Shown: one piece after another, positions 24,777 to 42,403 of the stretch
How positions within the stretch are numbered: position 1 is the stretch's first letter
Layout of the letters: each line of letters begins with the position of its first letter
DNA from: a cyanobacterium endosymbiont of Rhopalodia gibberula
Lineage (GTDB): Bacteria > Cyanobacteriota > Cyanobacteriia > Cyanobacteriales > Microcystaceae
Direction: 5' to 3'
DNA length: 64,000 nt
NCBI RefSeq assembly: GCF_003574135.1
Contig: NZ_AP018341.1
Span: 496,001-560,000 of the forward strand
Translations under genes and position numbers: made by a program
The notes under the pieces: model-generated
What the model was told of the DNA's origin: nothing
Seen by the model: the letters and a program-made list of their open reading frames with translations, nothing else
The model's database searches: none

Positions 24777-24910
24777 TTACAATAGAGTCAACAGCGAAGA
24801 ATTCAGTTAATTGAGCAAACTTCGCTGCGATTCGTCAATCAACAAATGAGGTCAGACATTAGAAATAAAGCTTTTATGGGACAATAACAAAGGTGGTATC
24901 TAGAATAACC

Positions 24911-26224
24911 ATGAATGCACCCCTAAAAATTATTGTCCTTGATGATGACCCCACAGGTTCTCAAACAGTGCATAGTTGTTTGCTACTGATGAATTGGGAT
25001 GTCGACACCCTGCGGTTGGGTTTAACAGATGAGGTTCCCATTTTTTTTGTTCTTACCAATACGAGAGCATTAACTCCAAAAGATGCTGCTGTTCTTACGA
25101 AAGAAGTTTGTCATAATCTAAAATTAGCTATTAAGGCAGAGGGCGTTGAAGATTTCCTACTAGTCAGTCGGTCTGATTCTACACTAAGGGGACATTATCC
25201 CATCGAAACCGATGTCATTACCCAGGAATTAGGTGAATTTGATGCTCATTTTCTTATCCCTGCTTTTTTTGAAGGGGGAAGAGTAACCCGTGATAGTATT
25301 CATTATCTACACACAAATGGCGTCCCTATCCCTGTTCATGAGACAGAATTTGCCAAAGATTCCGTTTTTGGCTATCATCATAGTTATCTTCCTGACTATG
25401 TGGAAGAAAAAACTAATGGACGTATTAAATCAACAGAAGTAAAACGATTTTTACTCCGGGATATTCGTCAAGGAAGTTTAGAAAGATTAATGAGATTAAA
25501 AAGAAATCAATGTGCAGTTGTTGACGGAGAAAATCAACAAGACTTGGATCAATTTGCACAAGATTTATTGACTGCAGCAGCATCGGGTAAACGATTTTTG
25601 CTTCGTGGTGCAGCCAGTATTCTAACGTCTTTGGCACAATTGGGATTTCAACCTAGCGCCCCCGAAGAAATGAATAAGTATAAACCCACCATCAACCCTG
25701 GGGTCGTTTTAGTGGGATCTCATGTTGAAAAAACTACTCAGCAGCTCAAGCAATTACTGAAAGAAGAAGATGTAGTAGGAATTGAAATAGATGTTAAACA
25801 GTTACGAGATAATCCCAATCAACGTGAAAGCTTACTAGCACAAACTTTAGATAAGGTCAAGGTTGTTTACCAAGAAAATAAAACCCCGGCTATATATACC
25901 AGTCGGGAAGAATTAACCTTTGAAAGGACACAAAAACGCTTAGATTTTGGGTTTAAAGTGTCTGGGTTATTGACAGATGTGGTGCAGGGGTTGCCCCATA
26001 ATATTGGGTTTTTAATTAGTAAAGGGGGTATTACATCTAATGATGTTCTCAGTAACGGACTAAACTTAAGATCAGTCCGTTTGTTGGGTCAGATTTTAGC
26101 AGGATGTTCGATAGTAAGAACATCAGTAGATCATCCAATCTTTCCTAATTTGCCGGTAGTTTTATTTCCTGGTAATGTGGGAGATGATCAAGGGTTAGTC
26201 GAAGTGTATCGCCGCTTAAGTTAA
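24911..26224 (+). CDS. four-carbon acid sugar kinase family protein
   Basis: The product is about 437 residues from ATG 24911; an in-frame GTG at 24893 gives six extra residues. The N-terminal domain begins IIVLDDDPTGSQTVHS and contains SRSDSTLRGHYPIE, the substrate-binding motif of the family formerly called DUF1537. The C-terminal nucleotide-binding domain includes GFLISKGGITSNDVL and a glycine-rich PGNVGDDQG end. Known members are ATP-dependent kinases of four-carbon acid sugars such as D-threonate or erythronate. The exact substrate of the cyanobacterial form is unknown. It follows rplT by 134 bases and appears intact. Confidence 0.85.
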   Translation: MNAPLKIIVLDDDPTGSQTVHSCLLLMNWDVDTLRLGLTDEVPIFFVLTNTRALTPKDAAVLTKEVCHNLKLAIKAEGVEDFLLVSRSDSTLRGHYPIETDVITQELGEFDAHFLIPAFFEGGRVTRDSIHYLHTNGVPIPVHETEFAKDSVFGYHHSYLPDYVEEKTNGRIKSTEVKRFLLRDIRQGSLERLMRLKRNQCAVVDGENQQDLDQFAQDLLTAAASGKRFLLRGAASILTSLAQLGFQPSAPEEMNKYKPTINPGVVLVGSHVEKTTQQLKQLLKEEDVVGIEIDVKQLRDNPNQRESLLAQTLDKVKVVYQENKTPAIYTSREELTFERTQKRLDFGFKVSGLLTDVVQGLPHNIGFLISKGGITSNDVLSNGLNLRSVRLLGQILAGCSIVRTSVDHPIFPNLPVVLFPGNVGDDQGLVEVYRRLS

Positions 26225-26690: not shown

Positions 26691-29276
26691 TTATTTGAGT
26701 TTGTTGTCTGTTAGGATCAACTGTTGACGATGAATCTGTAATAATCGTAATTTCTGTTGAGAAATCTGCTCTAACATATAAATCACTTGTTCAGGTTTTA
26801 ATACTGTTCCATCATTGCGACAACTCCCCAAATATCTCAAAATAACAGAATTATCGTTATTGTAATATTTTAGAGATAAACTAAATAGGCTATCCCCCAA
26901 GTTCACTACAATTTTCTTACCAGATTTTGTGGTCTTTTCCCAATTAATCTCCGGACAATGATTTAACTGATCAATCCAATGTTGCCATTCTCCTAATGAG
27001 ACCAACTCATTTGTTTTAACGGTAATTAGATAAGCGGCCTTGTCTAATAACTGAGTAGCTGCTAAGGATTTAATTGGAACTTCTTCAACTTGATAAATTG
27101 GAATATCTGACGGAAGTTGTGTCGATAAAAGTTGAAGAAAGTCTCCAAGTTTTATTCTTTCAGTCAATTCAAAATCAACAATTTCCCCGTCACTTGTAAT
27201 TCCTAAACTTAAAGCATTTGCAATCGAAACTCTAGGTCCAGGGTGATATCCCCCTGTACAAGAAATTGGTAATGACCCACGATGGATTGCTCGATTAAAT
27301 AATCTAACTAAATCTAAATGACTTACTAAAGCCATTTCCCCAACTTTGCCAAACCAAACGCGTATGCGTTGCGCTTTATTTTGATTGGGTTGATACTTTC
27401 CCTGAAACTCAGGAATTGGCGGAGGTTCTATTGCTATATTATGACCAAAATCTGGTCCACACACTCCACAATTAGAGCAGCTATTAAAGGTACAATCAGG
27501 AACAGTTACTGTTTCTAAGGCCCGTTTTAAGTCCTCTTTAAGCCAGGCTTTGTTAATTCCCGTATCAAGATGATCCCAAGGTAAGGCTACGTCATAATCG
27601 TCTATCGTTTCAAAAACATTCCATTCTCCATTTTTAACCTTACGGTATTTCCAGGTTAACTCCGCCTCGTCGATGGCTTGTTCCCAAGCAGAATGAGCTT
27701 TATCTGTATTTTCCCACCAAGAATCCATTCCTGCCCCCAATTCCCAAGCACGACGTACCACAGGAGCTAAACGGCGATCACTCCGTCCAACAAAATCTTC
27801 CATAGCGGAGATCCGAATATCAGTATAATTGACTTTAACTCCCTGAACTTTACGGAACGCTTCTCTCAATAATTCCTGTTTGCGACGAAATTCACTGGTA
27901 GATACCGAATGCCATTGAAAGGGAGTGTGGGGTTTAGGAGTAAAGTTAGAAATTGTTAAGGTAAGTTGGAGTGATCGCTTGCCCCTGGGACGACATTCTC
28001 GTTTTAACCAGCGCACAGTTTCTACAATACCAAGCACATCAAGATCCGTTTCCCCTGGCAAGCCAATCATAAAATAGAGTTTGATTTTATCCCATCCTTG
28101 CTCAACAGCAGTTTTGATGCCCCTAAGTAATTCTTCGTTGGTTAATCCTTTATTAATAACATCTCGCAGCCTTTGAGTTCCTGCTTCGGGGGCAAAAGTT
28201 AACCCTGATTGGCGAATTCCTCCAATGATGTTGGCGATATTTTCATCAAAACGATCAACCCGTTGACTGGGCAAGGACAAGGAAATATTTTTCCCTTTGA
28301 GTCTGTTTTTGATTTCTAATCCTACTGATGGGAGAGAAAGATAGTCGGAACAGCTTAACGAAAGTAGAGAAAATTCGTTATAACCTGTCTGACGAATTCC
28401 TTCTTCGAGGGTATTAATAATTTGCTCAGGTTCTACATCTCGTGCAGGACGGGTCAACATTCCTGGTTGACAAAAACGACAACCACGGGTGCATCCTCGA
28501 CGCACTTCTAATACTAGGCGATCATGTATAGTTTCTACAAAGGGGACTAACCCAATTGAGTAAGCAGGAAGAGGGGTCGCTACTCTCCGTAAAATTCGTC
28601 TAGGGACATCGGGATGGTTAGGATGGACTGAACTATCATCAGCGACATCATAAAAACGGGGAACGTAAACTCCTGGAACTTGAGCTAAATCTAAGAGTAA
28701 GTCTCCTTTACTCAAGTTGTTAGTTTTTCCCTCTTCGAGCACTAAGCCAATCTCTGGAAGTAATTCTTCCCCATCTCCTAAAGCGATAAAATCGAAAAAG
28801 TCGGCGAAAGGTTCTGGATTAGAGGTTGCAGTTTGTCCTCCTGCAAAAACCAAAGGATAGTTTCTTTGGTTGCGTTCTTGCCACGTTAGGGGAATTTGAG
28901 CTAGACTAAGCATTTCTAGAACATTAGTTACCCCTAGCTCATAGCTAAGGTTAAAACCCAAGATATCAAACTCAGTGAGGGAACGACGAGATTCCAAGGC
29001 AAATAGGGGAGTTTTAGTATCTCGGAGTTTAGTTGCTAAATCTGGGGCGGGGAGATAAGCGCGGTCGCATAGTTGTCTAGGTTGAGCATTTAGGATATTG
29101 TAAAGGATGATATGACCTAAATTAGAGGCTCCAAGTTCGTAAATTTCTGGATAGGTAAGAACCCAATACACATCCGCTTCATTCCAAGGTTTATGCTTAG
29201 CTCCTAATTCATTGCCTAGGTAACGGGCAGGCTTGTTTATCTCAGGGGTAATTAATTTTTCTATTGCAACTTTCAT
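26691..29276 (-). CDS. radical SAM protein with C-terminal DUF2344 domain (TIGR03960-like)
   Basis: The 861-residue protein begins with a B12-binding-like/Rossmann region containing TYPEIYELGASNLGHIILYN. A radical SAM core follows, with the 4Fe-4S motif C262xxxC266xxC269 (RRGCTRGCRFCQPG) and downstream FAPEAGTQRLRDVINKGLT. A Cys-rich patch (TFNSCSNCGVCG) separates it from the C-terminal DUF2344 domain (about 645-861), whose motifs include VSHLDLVRLFNRAI and TGGYHPGPRVSIANALSLG. The architecture matches a widespread family often found next to ribonuclease E or G genes. Substrate unknown. All cluster ligands are present. Confidence 0.9.
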   Translation of the reverse strand: MKVAIEKLITPEINKPARYLGNELGAKHKPWNEADVYWVLTYPEIYELGASNLGHIILYNILNAQPRQLCDRAYLPAPDLATKLRDTKTPLFALESRRSLTEFDILGFNLSYELGVTNVLEMLSLAQIPLTWQERNQRNYPLVFAGGQTATSNPEPFADFFDFIALGDGEELLPEIGLVLEEGKTNNLSKGDLLLDLAQVPGVYVPRFYDVADDSSVHPNHPDVPRRILRRVATPLPAYSIGLVPFVETIHDRLVLEVRRGCTRGCRFCQPGMLTRPARDVEPEQIINTLEEGIRQTGYNEFSLLSLSCSDYLSLPSVGLEIKNRLKGKNISLSLPSQRVDRFDENIANIIGGIRQSGLTFAPEAGTQRLRDVINKGLTNEELLRGIKTAVEQGWDKIKLYFMIGLPGETDLDVLGIVETVRWLKRECRPRGKRSLQLTLTISNFTPKPHTPFQWHSVSTSEFRRKQELLREAFRKVQGVKVNYTDIRISAMEDFVGRSDRRLAPVVRRAWELGAGMDSWWENTDKAHSAWEQAIDEAELTWKYRKVKNGEWNVFETIDDYDVALPWDHLDTGINKAWLKEDLKRALETVTVPDCTFNSCSNCGVCGPDFGHNIAIEPPPIPEFQGKYQPNQNKAQRIRVWFGKVGEMALVSHLDLVRLFNRAIHRGSLPISCTGGYHPGPRVSIANALSLGITSDGEIVDFELTERIKLGDFLQLLSTQLPSDIPIYQVEEVPIKSLAATQLLDKAAYLITVKTNELVSLGEWQHWIDQLNHCPEINWEKTTKSGKKIVVNLGDSLFSLSLKYYNNDNSVILRYLGSCRNDGTVLKPEQVIYMLEQISQQKLRLLQIHRQQLILTDNKLK

Positions 29277-29364
29277 AATAAAACCTCCGGCACTTAGACT
29301 TCAGGATAAAATCCTGTCGCTTTCCTAAATATATACCGGAAGTTTCGGGAGGTGAGATGCAAGT

Positions 29365-29724
29365 TTAGGCTGCTACAGTGTTGGGCATCAACAATTCAAA
29401 CTGACGACGATTCTCAAAAATGTCTAAAGCCTTATCTAACTGGGTTAGCTCAAAGATTATACGCACCGAGGGTTCTAAAGAACACACACTGAACCGCTTA
29501 CCCAAACTTTCAGCTAAAGAATAGACATACACTAATGCCATTAATCCTGCACTGTCAAGAAACCCTACACTGTGCATATCGATCAAAAAGGTAGAATGCT
29601 TGGAAGAAATTATCGCTTGAGTTAGTTCCTGTTGAAAACTAGCTGCATTAGCAGCTGTGATGTAGCCACTGGGCTCAAGGATGGCTAGTTCGTGATCAAT
29701 AAAATTACTCCTCATCATTGCCAT
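29365..29724 (-). CDS. STAS-domain anti-sigma factor antagonist-like protein
   Basis: The 119-residue single STAS domain resembles SpoIIAA/RsbV. The conserved phosphorylatable Ser is S58 in DMHSVGFLDSAGLMAL, the standard acceptor position for a partner-switching kinase. It probably relays a phosphorylation-controlled protein interaction in the cytoplasm. No RsbW-type kinase or PP2C phosphatase is adjacent. It lies 88 bases downstream of nothing intact and 88 bases upstream of the radical SAM gene on the same strand, so co-transcription with it is possible. Start could be any of the first Mets (residues 1, 3 or 4). Confidence 0.85.
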   Translation of the reverse strand: MAMMRSNFIDHELAILEPSGYITAANAASFQQELTQAIISSKHSTFLIDMHSVGFLDSAGLMALVYVYSLAESLGKRFSVCSLEPSVRIIFELTQLDKALDIFENRRQFELLMPNTVAA

Positions 29725-30320
29725 GTATCCTCTGTTTAAAGCAGTTTCCGTGATTAATGTGTACTCAAATTATAACCAGTTATCCTGGAAAAACAGTTAA
29801 CCGAAATCAGTTGCGTAACTGCAACTTAATTTTAGACAGTACTTTAGACAGTTAGCTAACATCAAAGTATAGTATTATGACTTAAATTATTCTTGGTCAA
29901 CGAGAAAATTAATTTCCTTGATAATAGAAATTTTGACCAAATCCTAGTTAGCTTCAGTTATTTTTCAGCAGATGTAGATTTCTCGGATTGTTTTGAATCA
30001 AACTCCAAACTTGGAATCTTAACTGTGGACCAGTTTAAGATTCCATAGACAGAAAGTTGAAAATCATACTAAAGTTAGTCAAATCTGGACTACTTAAACT
30101 AGTCGATAACCTCAGTATAAATCCGAAACAACAGTCCCACGACACCTTAATCTAAATATTTTGTAAAATTAAAATTTTTTAAAAAAATGAATAAAACGCA
30201 AATTCAGGTTGTGTAAAGTTGTCCAAACCTCTTCATTGTTGGTTTAGACTCCTATGATAGTGTAATGATGACAGTAATTAAAACCTATTAGGAAAACTGC
30301 TGATAACAGCGAATGTTACT
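29725..30320. other. 0.6 kb region between the STAS gene and the Flv pseudogene
   Basis: No gene is seen. A hairpin with exact 11-bp arms (TGGAATCTTAA/TTAAGATTCCA, 30012-30045) is present. The sequence upstream of 30321 probably includes the dead promoter of the flavodiiron gene. Confidence 0.5.
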
Positions 30321-30840
30321 ATGGACACCATAGCCATTCGTTTTCTTAACTGAGATCGCGATCACTTTAATATCTAATTTAGACTACAATATCGAACGAC
30401 TTAATAATTCCTAATATTATTCGAGGAAATAGACTTGTGTTAGTCGATATCTACTACACTAGACTCAGTCAGTTTTTCCTCAATGCGTTAATGGAGATTG
30501 ATCTGTCTATTATTGATTATTCAATCATACAAAACCTTATCATAATGAGCTAGCAAGAAAAATCTTGGAGTCAGTCCTAAAGGTTACTGTTGTAAGTTCT
30601 GAAGCAGCGATTTAATACTTCAAAAAATTTGTTTATCAACCATTTATTAAGGTATACTTTGACAAAAGTGAGGAAATTATAGACTTAGGGAAAAGTCATT
30701 CTTTAACGTTAGTGACTGCACCGAGTCTACTTTAGATTGATGCCATTCAAACCTATGACCACGGAACCAAAACTCTATTTATCTGTGATGTATTTGAAAT
30801 ACATTATCATTCTGATAGTCTCTATATGAGTAGATTTTTT
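30321..30840 (+). pseudogene. flavodiiron protein (Flv) pseudogene, N-terminal part only
   Basis: Read across three frames, the sequence reconstructs the beta-lactamase-like domain of a cyanobacterial A-type flavodiiron protein. Frame one has TIAIRFLN-stop-DRDHFNI (family: IRxLDWDRDRFDIE). Frame two has IRGNRLVLVDIYYTRLSQFF. Frame three has NHTKPYHNELARKI, then VTVVSSEAA, FVYQPFIK, IIDLGKSHSLTLVTAPSLL and TYDHGTKTLFICDVFEIHYH. Shifts fall near 30412-30419 and near 30521, and there are several in-frame stops. The diiron motif HxExDH has become HTKPYH. Only about 175 of the usual about 570 residues remain; the flavodoxin and flavin-reductase domains are gone. Confidence 0.85.
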
Positions 30841-32083
30841 TTTAAAAAAATAGAGTAAAACTGAAGCAAATTACAAGAAAAGCCTGAAGTCCTATTAATG
30901 AAATAAACCTCATGAAATTGAATTTCAAAAATGAATAGAAAATAGTTAAATTGAGTTGATGAACATTTAGCTAAAAATGTAAGTATATCTAAAAAAAGTC
31001 TTACTAATTAAGAATAATCTTAATTTAGTGTTAAATTATATAGTAATTTTTTTGTCCTTTGAGCAAAGCAACTTTATCAATTACTAACCATTTTAACGCC
31101 TAAAGTTTTTATCTATAATTTTTGCTCTAATTCCTTGAGTATTGTTTCTATTTCTTGTTCATTCACATTATTAATTTTGTCTAAATTATTAATGTTACTA
31201 TTTAATATTTCTTCAAATTTATTGATTTTTATTTGATAGAGATTGTTTTTAATACATACAGTTTTTATAGATACAGAAAATATAATAGTTAATTCATTAT
31301 TTTGATAAATTTTATTAGTAATTAAGCCACAACAAATATAGATTTTTATTGGGTATATTTTTTCTATAAATTAGTATGTCTGTATATTATTTATATAATA
31401 AATTGCACAAAATAATTGTGATAAAAAATATTAATTAAAATTATATAAACTAAATACAATTTATTTTTTAAAGTATATTTATATCTGTCTACTTGAAAAA
31501 TATCTGTGTAAAATAAACCTGGATAAAATAACAGCAGCATTCGTAAATAATATTTTATATTTATAAATTACATCTAGTGCATTAAAAACTTTGTAAGAGA
31601 CTATCGTATTGAGATGATTGCTGATTTATTTTCTTAAAATCTCAAGTAAATCTGCCGCATTAAAAAAATTTTCTAAAGTATAGTTACAAACTATAAAGTT
31701 AGTATACTAATTTTTATATTTATTTGAATAATAATGTTAAATAAGTTGGACTAACTCAGCGCTAATATCAAACTTAATTAGACTAAATCTGATAAGTAAG
31801 GCTAACACTTTCCTTATCTTAAAAATTAATAATTATTTCTAACTATTTTTCTGAAAACAGTCCTGTTTTTTTAGATAAAATTGTATGAGTTTTGTTATTA
31901 ATTAATCTAAATTTCTGCTATGTCTAAACATCTAATATATTCTCATCTTTTTATCTTAACTGTTTCTCATTCTTTATTTTATGTTTTCTTTTCCTGATTG
32001 CTAACTATCAGTTTACTAACTTGAGTTCAGTAGAACTATTTTTTCTCTTTTTTCTTTTTCAACAAACGAAAATAAAATAATCA
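30841..32083. other. 1.2 kb AT-rich region after the Flv remnant
   Basis: The rest of the flavodiiron gene is not recognisable here. On the - strand at about 31130-31375 an open stretch of about 80 codons without a start ends in a polar coiled-coil-like tail (NVNEQEIETILKELEQKL); I cannot name it. Otherwise nothing is seen. Confidence 0.4.
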
Positions 32084-33064
32084 TCAGTTATTATATCGAT
32101 AAAACTCTTGATACCATGCAACAAATTGTTGAAGACCTAGGGTAATTGTAGTTGTTGGTTTGAATCCGATATCGTTGATTAGTTCATCTATATCAGCATA
32201 AGTAGATACAACATCTCCAGGTTGCATCGGTAAGAAATTTTTGACGGCTTTCATATTTAAAGCTGTTTCAATTACCTCAATAAATTCTTTTAATTCTACT
32301 GGGTTATTTTTTCCAAGATTATAAATCTTATATGGTGGTTGATTAAAAGTATTTAAGGGATACTTAGGGATAATCCTTACCATAGCTTCAATGACATCAT
32401 CAATATAAGTAAAATCGCGCTTCATCCTGCCATGATTATAAACGTCAATAGGTTTTTTTTCTGTGATCGCTCGAACAAATTTAAAATATGCCATATCTGG
32501 TCTTCCCCAAGGACCATACACCGTAAAAAAGCGCAATCCAGTAATAGGAATCAAATATAAATGACTGTAGGCATAAGCCATTAATTCATTTGCTTTTTTA
32601 GTAGCTGCATAAAGAGAAACCGGTCTATCTACATTATCAGTAACAGAAAAAGGAACCTTTTTATTAGAACCATAAACTGAACTAGAAGAAGCAAATACTA
32701 AATGATTAATATGGTTATGACGACATCCCTCTAAAAGATTAGCAAATCCTACTAAGTTACTATCAATATAAGCTTCAGGGTTTTCCAAGGAATAACGAAC
32801 TCCAGCCTGGGCAGCGAGATGAACAACATACTCAAAAGAATATTCTTTGAAGAGATCCATAACTAAAGATCTATGGCTAATATCTAAACGGTTAAATTTA
32901 AAGTTCTTTTGGGATAACAATTGTTCTAGACGAGCTTGTTTGAGGGTAACATCATAATAGTTGTTGAGATTGTCGATGCCATATATTTGGTGTCCTTCTG
33001 CTAACAATCGTTGTGCTAAATGATATCCAATAAAGCCAGCTACGCCTGTAATTAAAATTTGCAT
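32084..33064 (-). CDS. NAD-dependent epimerase, UDP-glucuronate 4-epimerase-like
   Basis: This 326-residue extended short-chain dehydrogenase has the NAD-binding motif GVAGFIGYHLA at residues 7-17, catalytic SSSSVYG, and the YAATKKANE motif with Tyr and Lys of the YxxxK pair. The segment GIDNLNNYYDVTLKQARLEQL and the TVYGPWGRPDMA motif are typical of UDP-glucuronate 4-epimerases that feed capsule or LPS synthesis. A related hexose or pentose epimerase is possible. A dead glycosyltransferase lies immediately upstream on the same strand, so this is probably the survivor of a surface-polysaccharide cluster. Intact and of normal length. Confidence 0.85.
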   Translation of the reverse strand: MQILITGVAGFIGYHLAQRLLAEGHQIYGIDNLNNYYDVTLKQARLEQLLSQKNFKFNRLDISHRSLVMDLFKEYSFEYVVHLAAQAGVRYSLENPEAYIDSNLVGFANLLEGCRHNHINHLVFASSSSVYGSNKKVPFSVTDNVDRPVSLYAATKKANELMAYAYSHLYLIPITGLRFFTVYGPWGRPDMAYFKFVRAITEKKPIDVYNHGRMKRDFTYIDDVIEAMVRIIPKYPLNTFNQPPYKIYNLGKNNPVELKEFIEVIETALNMKAVKNFLPMQPGDVVSTYADIDELINDIGFKPTTTITLGLQQFVAWYQEFYRYNN

Positions 33065-41290: not shown

Positions 41291-42403
41291 TCAGCTTGTT
41301 TTTTTTTGGAGAAACTTGATAATTGACGCTTTTTCTAAAAACCCTAATACAATGCCATTTTTTTGAATCACGGTTAGTTGCTGACGAGGATCATCCTCTA
41401 AAATTTTTACTACTTCTAACAAAGATTTATCTGCTTCAATTGTGATTATACCATCATTAATGGGCTGCATTATTTCTGAAATTTTTAACTCAGTCCATTG
41501 GGAAGTAGAAATTTTATTCAAAGCATCTGGTTCGAGAATTCCCGATAGTTTTCCTTCTTCATTAATTATTAAAAACTTCTTCCACTTCCTCTTACCAATT
41601 ACATAATCATTAACAAATTTTCTCAGGTTAAAACTATCAGGAACTACAGGACTATAAGGAATTACTGCATCTTGGGCTGTATAACCACTTAAAGTTTCTT
41701 GAAACCTAGCAGACTGACCAGAAAATACTGCATTTTGTAATAGGAAGAAACCAATTAATAATGTCCAAAAATTTCCAATAGGACTAATTCCTAAAATTGC
41801 TAACCCACTGATAGTAACAGTCAACCAACCGAAAATTTGTCCAACGCGACTAGCAAAAATAATTCCTTTATTTGGATTTCCAGTGATTTTCCAAACTAAT
41901 GCTTTAAGAATATTGCCACCATCTAAAGGTAGACCAGGAATTAAATTAAATAATCCTAGAATTAAGTTAATTGAAGCAAGTAGTGAAACAATTGCTTCAA
42001 CCGGTGCACTAAAGGAGAAATTAACTTGAATTAGGTTCAATACAGCAAAGATCACTAAACTAACAGCGGGGCCCGCAATCGCTACCCAAAATGCTTCTAA
42101 GGGTGTTTCAGATTCTTTTTCTAAACTAGCTAATCCTCCAAACAAAAATAGAGTAATGGACTTAACATTAATTCCTTGGGAAAGTGCAACAAAACTGTGC
42201 CCCAATTCATGAACGACCACAGAAGAAAATAGTAACAATGCAGCAAAAAGACCTAAAACCCAAGGGACAATCCCTACTAATTGCGGAAATAATGCCAACT
42301 GTCTCCCATAACTGACAGCAACTAACCCCAGAACTAGGAACCAAGAAGGATTCACATAAAAAGGAATCCCGAACAAATTGCCAACCCTTATATTATTATT
42401 CAT
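41291..42403 (-). CDS. site-2-protease-family (M50) metalloprotease with CBS domains
   Basis: The 370-residue protein has about five or six membrane segments in the first 225 residues. The zinc motif is H65-E-L-G-H69 (VVVHELGHSF), with the third ligand in D161 (LPLDGGN). The C-terminal about 135 residues form a pair of CBS-type domains (around GILEPDALNKI and VIQKNGIVLGFLE). Intramembrane proteases of this class cleave membrane-bound regulators, and the CBS part may sense adenosine nucleotides. Its substrate is unknown. It is convergent with the tRNA and divergent from argF. All catalytic residues are intact. Confidence 0.9.
   Translation of the reverse strand: MNNNIRVGNLFGIPFYVNPSWFLVLGLVAVSYGRQLALFPQLVGIVPWVLGLFAALLLFSSVVVHELGHSFVALSQGINVKSITLFLFGGLASLEKESETPLEAFWVAIAGPAVSLVIFAVLNLIQVNFSFSAPVEAIVSLLASINLILGLFNLIPGLPLDGGNILKALVWKITGNPNKGIIFASRVGQIFGWLTVTISGLAILGISPIGNFWTLLIGFFLLQNAVFSGQSARFQETLSGYTAQDAVIPYSPVVPDSFNLRKFVNDYVIGKRKWKKFLIINEEGKLSGILEPDALNKISTSQWTELKISEIMQPINDGIITIEADKSLLEVVKILEDDPRQQLTVIQKNGIVLGFLEKASIIKFLQKKTS

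Follow-up and report, generated by a model that had tools for sequence, protein, structure and literature searches.

A decayed flv3 relic in the non-photosynthetic endosymbiont of Rhopalodia gibberula carries lesions shared with sister endosymbionts

The window, a stretch of 64,000 nucleotides (C1:496001-560000) from the single-contig, 3,020,309-bp genome of the Rhopalodia gibberula endosymbiont (RgSB), contains the remains of a flavodiiron gene, flv3, between an intact STAS-domain gene and an intact epimerase gene. RgSB, a cyanobacterium living within a diatom, fixes nitrogen and has lost photosynthesis. In photosynthetic cyanobacteria, flavodiiron proteins pass surplus electrons onto oxygen. 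Four endosymbionts were compared, RgSB and those of Epithemia turgida (EtSB), E. clementina (EcSB) and E. pelagica (EpSB), together with the relatives SU2 and UBA12306, which were assumed to be free-living. The features of the locus, in window positions, are as follows.

29365-29724, minus strand: intact STAS-domain gene, also the left neighbour of flv3 in UBA12306 (gene order)
30268-30825, plus strand: flv3 pseudogene, N-terminal diiron (ODP) half, codons 1 to ~190 of 575 (tblastn, ODP family PF19583, seven indels and seven stops)
30526-30543, plus strand: former diiron motif HTEPDH, now HTKPYH (alignment; HTEPDH in 22 of 22 aligned proteins)
30885-31018, no strand given: short dispersed repeat bordering the break (further copies in RgSB, EtSB and EcSB)
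31040-31401, minus strand: relic of an ISL3-family transposase gene, in blocks 31040-31223 and 31283-31401 (match to a PCC 8801 element; Pfam, NCBIfam)
31566-31757, minus strand: remnant of a gene for a SAM-dependent methyltransferase-like protein, part of the epimerase cluster (match to residues 146-209 of the SU2 protein)
32084-33064, minus strand: intact NAD-dependent epimerase/dehydratase gene, right edge of the rearranged block (gene order)

A tblastn search of positions 29725-32083 with the intact Flv3 of SU2 gave a linked E value of 1.6e-30, through hits that follow the gene order across frames +3, +2 and +1, and the intact Flv3 of UBA12306 gave 3e-28, likewise in three frames with the gene order kept. 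The best segment has 54% protein identity to SU2 Flv3 across 108 residues and scores 107 bits, against 23.1 bits for the highest of 500 mononucleotide shuffles of the region, and in a search of the whole RgSB genome the relic ranked first (E 5.5e-29). The ODP profile PF19583 matches it only partially, with three stops, at E 2.8e-5; the score of 24.7 bits falls short of the 27.2 cut-off. The first-pass annotation had read the region as a flavodiiron gene broken down to an N-terminal fragment, and this reading is confirmed. Its bounds of 30321-30840 need correction, since the relic starts ~50 bp and ends ~15 bp earlier, and of its two frameshifts and several stops only the stops stand: the alignment has stops at seven homologous codons and seven indels, six of them frame-shifting.

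Four close Flv3 proteins score 107, 101, 100 and 100 bits with the relic, three Flv4 proteins score at most 83.6 bits and Flv1 scores 25.2 bits (the paralogues compared were Flv4 and Flv1). The motif HTEPDH is present in 22 of 23 intact Flv3/Flv4-type proteins, the 23rd ending before the motif; these proteins were drawn from 34 loci with a filter of sequence motifs, and the set is hence biased toward the Flv3/Flv4 type. According to passages of PMC4390876, canonical ligands are found in Flv3 and Flv4 and are lacking in Flv1 and Flv2. Because the relic scores higher with Flv3 than with Flv4, derives from an HTEPDH background and belongs to a type with canonical ligands, we assign it to flv3. 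After the Flv4-type gene of SU2 comes another gene, of the Flv1/Flv2 kind, comparable to the flv4-flv2 order given in parts of PMC4390876.

The relic lacks the canonical ligands HxExDH and reads HTKPYH, as the first-pass annotation had noticed. This is a true change, in which two diiron ligands are altered (E to K and D to Y), and both alterations are also present in EtSB. HTKPYH was also considered as the normal non-canonical motif of an Flv1 and rejected, as the Flv1-type proteins of SU2 and PCC 8801 read HVNPNR and the highest score of the relic is with Flv3.

An intact Flv3 of a relative has all three of the ODP, flavodoxin and flavin-reductase domains, and at this locus residues 192-575, which hold the flavodoxin and flavin-reductase domains, have no significant match. 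The 3' two thirds of the gene are absent in both RgSB and EtSB. Positions 30891-32083 were rejected as the 3' half, having no significant flv3 match and being taken up in parts by the repeat, the ISL3 relic and the methyltransferase relic. Elsewhere in RgSB no flv3 3' half was found either, the C-terminal matches being a 171-aa frame that covers the flavin-reductase part only and pieces of the flv1 relic described below. The relic thus resembles cyanobacterial Flv3 (cluster B) in the sequence of its N-terminal ODP half, in its adjacency to a STAS gene as in UBA12306 and in being nearer to Flv3 than to Flv4, and differs from it in its broken frames, stops, changed ligands and missing domains. 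Taken as a whole, the locus is very probably best explained as a unitary pseudogene of flv3 in RgSB.

Gene order of the ancestral type is seen in UBA12306, where a radical SAM gene, the STAS gene and an intact flv3 follow one another. The STAS gene and flv3 of SU2 are both on contig C23, separated by ~250 kb; its methyltransferase and epimerase genes are on a different contig (C1), where they share a strand and are separated by three open frames. Less than 6 kb from the SU2 STAS gene there is a distant paralogue of the epimerase (28% identity), which is not the orthologue. The STAS-to-epimerase junction is present in all four endosymbionts and in neither SU2 nor UBA12306. Between the two genes, methyltransferase relics were found in RgSB, EtSB and EpSB, and none was detected in EcSB. 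The RgSB copy is 52% identical to the SU2 protein over residues 146-209, with three stops (E 4.4e-14), and the SU2 methyltransferase-like protein itself has only weak family matches, below curated cut-offs.

The 3' side of the flv3 stump in RgSB and EtSB is occupied by the short dispersed repeat and then the ISL3 transposase relic, which stands at the corresponding place in EtSB; the combination of repeat and ISL3 relic at the junction is known from these two genomes. The ~130-bp repeat has copies in RgSB, EtSB and EcSB (L152, L154, L156, L157), with none elsewhere in the 59 genomes among the matches listed. The two ISL3 blocks are 71% and 69% identical in DNA (E 1.5e-25 and 8.7e-12) to a PCC 8801 element that is intact, 1418 bp long and bounded by inverted GGTTCTACCGAACTT ends at the five sites compared (L144-L148), with an 8-bp target duplication, read by eye, at three of the five. 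The window copy has no recognisable ends, its match being confined to positions 738-1185 of 1418. Because the relic has no such ends, the case that the ISL3 element caused the break of flv3 is circumstantial. As to the order of events, the point lesions may be older than the rearrangement.

The surroundings hold further differences among the endosymbionts. The TIGR03960 radical SAM gene (window 26691-29276) has a full-length match in RgSB, EcSB and EpSB and survives only in pieces in EtSB (L059 6449-8106). The EtSB orthologues of the genes at 24893-26224 and 41291-42403 were recovered as short open stretches only, with 73 and 161 codons aligned, which suggests that these genes are lost in EtSB. 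Upstream of the STAS gene, a non-coding block (29725-30130) that is perhaps a regulatory region diverges between RgSB and EtSB by K 0.168, compared with 0.257 for the relic.

No intact flv gene was found elsewhere in RgSB. A profile search for the ODP family gave one match in this genome, the flv3 relic below the cut-off; across 59 genomes, 54 matched at E 0.001 and 53 were above the cut-off, and the five with no match were EtSB, EcSB, EpSB and two genomes of the same family (1.4-1.5 Mb), inferred to be UCYN-A. When RgSB, EcSB, EtSB and EpSB were searched with Flv1, a second, internally deleted flavodiiron relic of flv1 type appeared in RgSB (C1 ~2056673-2057382), with another in EcSB (C1:2586113-2586686); codons from ~131-136 to 408-449 are missing in both. 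The genome search proposed in the first-pass annotation therefore yielded only the flv3 relic and the deleted flv1 relic. Its further suggestion, a search for photosystem genes, gave no match for D1 or D2 in RgSB and psaA/psaB in broken pieces, which bears out its view of a non-photosynthetic endosymbiont. PsaA/PsaB were matched in five of seven genomes of the genus, with open frames in SU2, PCC 8801 and UBA12306, mostly stop-filled pieces in RgSB (C1:2492356-2493001) and EcSB (C1:2151964-2153483), and no match in EtSB and EpSB.

Many of the lesions of flv3 are common to the sister endosymbionts. RgSB and EtSB share 7-nt deletions at codons 13 and 89, a 3-nt deletion at codon 78 and a +1 indel at codon 51, that is, four of the seven indels in each relic, as well as stops at codons 8, 12 and 39. 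Of the lesions in RgSB, EcSB also carries two indels (the codon-13 deletion of 7 nt and the codon-51 +1) and three stops (codons 8, 12 and 31). The stump is longest in RgSB, nearly as long in EtSB and reduced to its first part, ~45-50 codons, in EcSB. No significant remains of flv3 were found in EpSB by blastn or nhmmer (best blastn E 0.42), where the loss could be independent. Small deletions at codons 7 and 45 occur in EcSB and EtSB and not in RgSB, which runs counter to a simple split order, RgSB being slightly nearer to EtSB (pooled dS 0.258) than to EcSB (0.269); they could reflect parallel deletion or a near three-way split.

Divergence of the relic itself points the same way. Between RgSB and EtSB, 109 of 501 sites differ (K = 0.257), and the pooled dS of 13 window genes, three of them only partly aligned in EtSB, is 0.258. 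Since the relic K equals the dS of neighbouring genes, the relic has evolved neutrally since before the RgSB/EtSB split. For RgSB and EcSB, K (0.226) falls somewhat short of dS (0.269), but EcSB has kept only 128 sites. Shared lesions together with a relic divergence equal to dS place the death of the gene before the split of RgSB, EtSB and EcSB; it is old and common to these sister endosymbionts.

How long the gene had been dead by then can be gauged from first and second codon positions, limited to those with no variation among four relatives. At 41 of 288 such sites RgSB and EtSB share a change, while private changes number 26 in each and seven sites differ in both. The intact leuS, used as a control with three relatives, has 66 shared changes in 1567 sites (Fisher p 2.5e-9 for the comparison, with sites treated as independent). 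The shared-to-private ratio of flv3 is 1.38 (bootstrap 95% 0.89-2.09), and once the leuS level is subtracted by hand it is about 1, so that, as a rough estimate, flv3 was dead before the RgSB/EtSB split for about as long as after it.

This age bears directly on the view of the first-pass annotation that the loss was relatively recent, which does not hold. A recent loss specific to RgSB would be in keeping with the readable stump, and passages of PMC5638926 report slower pseudogenisation in RgSB than in EtSB. We nevertheless consider it very improbable, given the lesions common to EtSB and EcSB, whose parallel origin is very unlikely with identical 7-nt deletions, and the equality of K and dS between RgSB and EtSB; conservation of Flv3, together with the modest neutral distance, probably accounts better for the readability. 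The same shared lesions leave a negligible probability that sequencing or assembly went wrong in a single genome and that an intact copy lies elsewhere. Such mistakes could in principle produce isolated frameshifts, but no actual support for this was found, the records of EtSB and EcSB carry the same damage, and the missing 3' half did not turn up elsewhere in RgSB; the first-pass annotation had itself raised an intact second half or an assembly error, and both are excluded on these grounds.

It is also extremely improbable that the stump has been retained as a short peptide, a small RNA or regulatory DNA. The spacer toward the STAS gene does evolve more slowly (Rg-Et K 0.168), which could be taken in favour of such a function, but the substitution rate of the relic is the synonymous one, EcSB retains its first part only and EpSB nothing detectable, and no Rfam family was found in 29000-32200 at gathering thresholds. 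An old flv3 pseudogene, dead before the sister endosymbionts separated, remains the preferred reading. Its decay would have begun when the photosystems were lost, as without surplus light-driven electrons to pass to O2 selection on Flv1 and Flv3 would have lapsed. Most of flv3 may then have been removed by insertion, deletion or rearrangement, perhaps via an insertion sequence, and the remaining stump would have been worn down by small indels and substitutions. The proposal of the first-pass annotation that light-driven electron disposal is no longer needed is sound with the photosystems gone, and the absence of Flv is in print, as passages of PMC12903740 state.

The psaB relics allow a comparison with photosystem I. 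Those of RgSB and EcSB have 1-nt and 15-nt deletions in common, with K = 0.187 against a dS of 0.269 and shared changes at 37 of 453 sites, in an alignment with a 503-nt gap that may be wrong beyond the gap. A K below dS and fewer shared changes could mean a later loss of photosystem I. The proportions of shared changes at conserved codon positions, 41/288 in flv3 and 37/453 in psaB, differ (Fisher p 0.0099), for pairs that are not the same (RgSB/EtSB and RgSB/EcSB, respectively) and genes of different baseline constraint, so the order of flv3 before psaB is suggestive only. It is doubtful that the flavodiiron electron outlet, flv3 and perhaps also flv1, disappeared early in the symbiosis and ahead of photosystem I. 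If it were true, the dismantling order of photosynthesis would be readable from relics.

Photosynthesis pseudogenes have been described in the spheroid bodies of rhopalodiacean diatoms, namely bciB in RgSB, rbcL/rbcS in EtSB, and psbC/psbD and fldA in Rhopalodia gibba (passages of PMC5638926 and PMC2246100). As with flv3, these are photosynthetic functions lost by pseudogenisation in the same lineage; flv3, however, is absent from the main text of PMC5638926, in which flv or flavo does not occur (0 occurrences), and the main text of PMC11070190 contains no flavodiiron. The literature passages on these endosymbionts covered here make no mention of the flv3 relic. Passages of PMC12903740 report that Flv proteins are absent in N2-fixing endosymbionts, naming Flv3, and draw a conclusion on oxygen protection, and parts of PMC4390876 give 0 flv genes for UCYN-A. 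Our findings agree with these passages in that there are no Flv proteins and no Mehler-like reaction, and differ from them in that they record absence only, whereas relics, shared lesions and a relative age are given here.

The decay of flv3 is mostly expected as ordinary reductive evolution and is useful as a dated fossil. It backs the claim published in PMC12903740, in the passages covered, that N2-fixing endosymbionts cannot remove oxygen via flavodiiron proteins, and adds physical remains to it. Since its lesions are shared across species and flv3 has evolved neutrally, the relics of flv3, flv1 and psaA/psaB could be used jointly to work out in which order photosynthetic functions were lost in a symbiosis dated to ~12 My (passages of PMC5638926) or 12-34 My (passages of PMC12903740).
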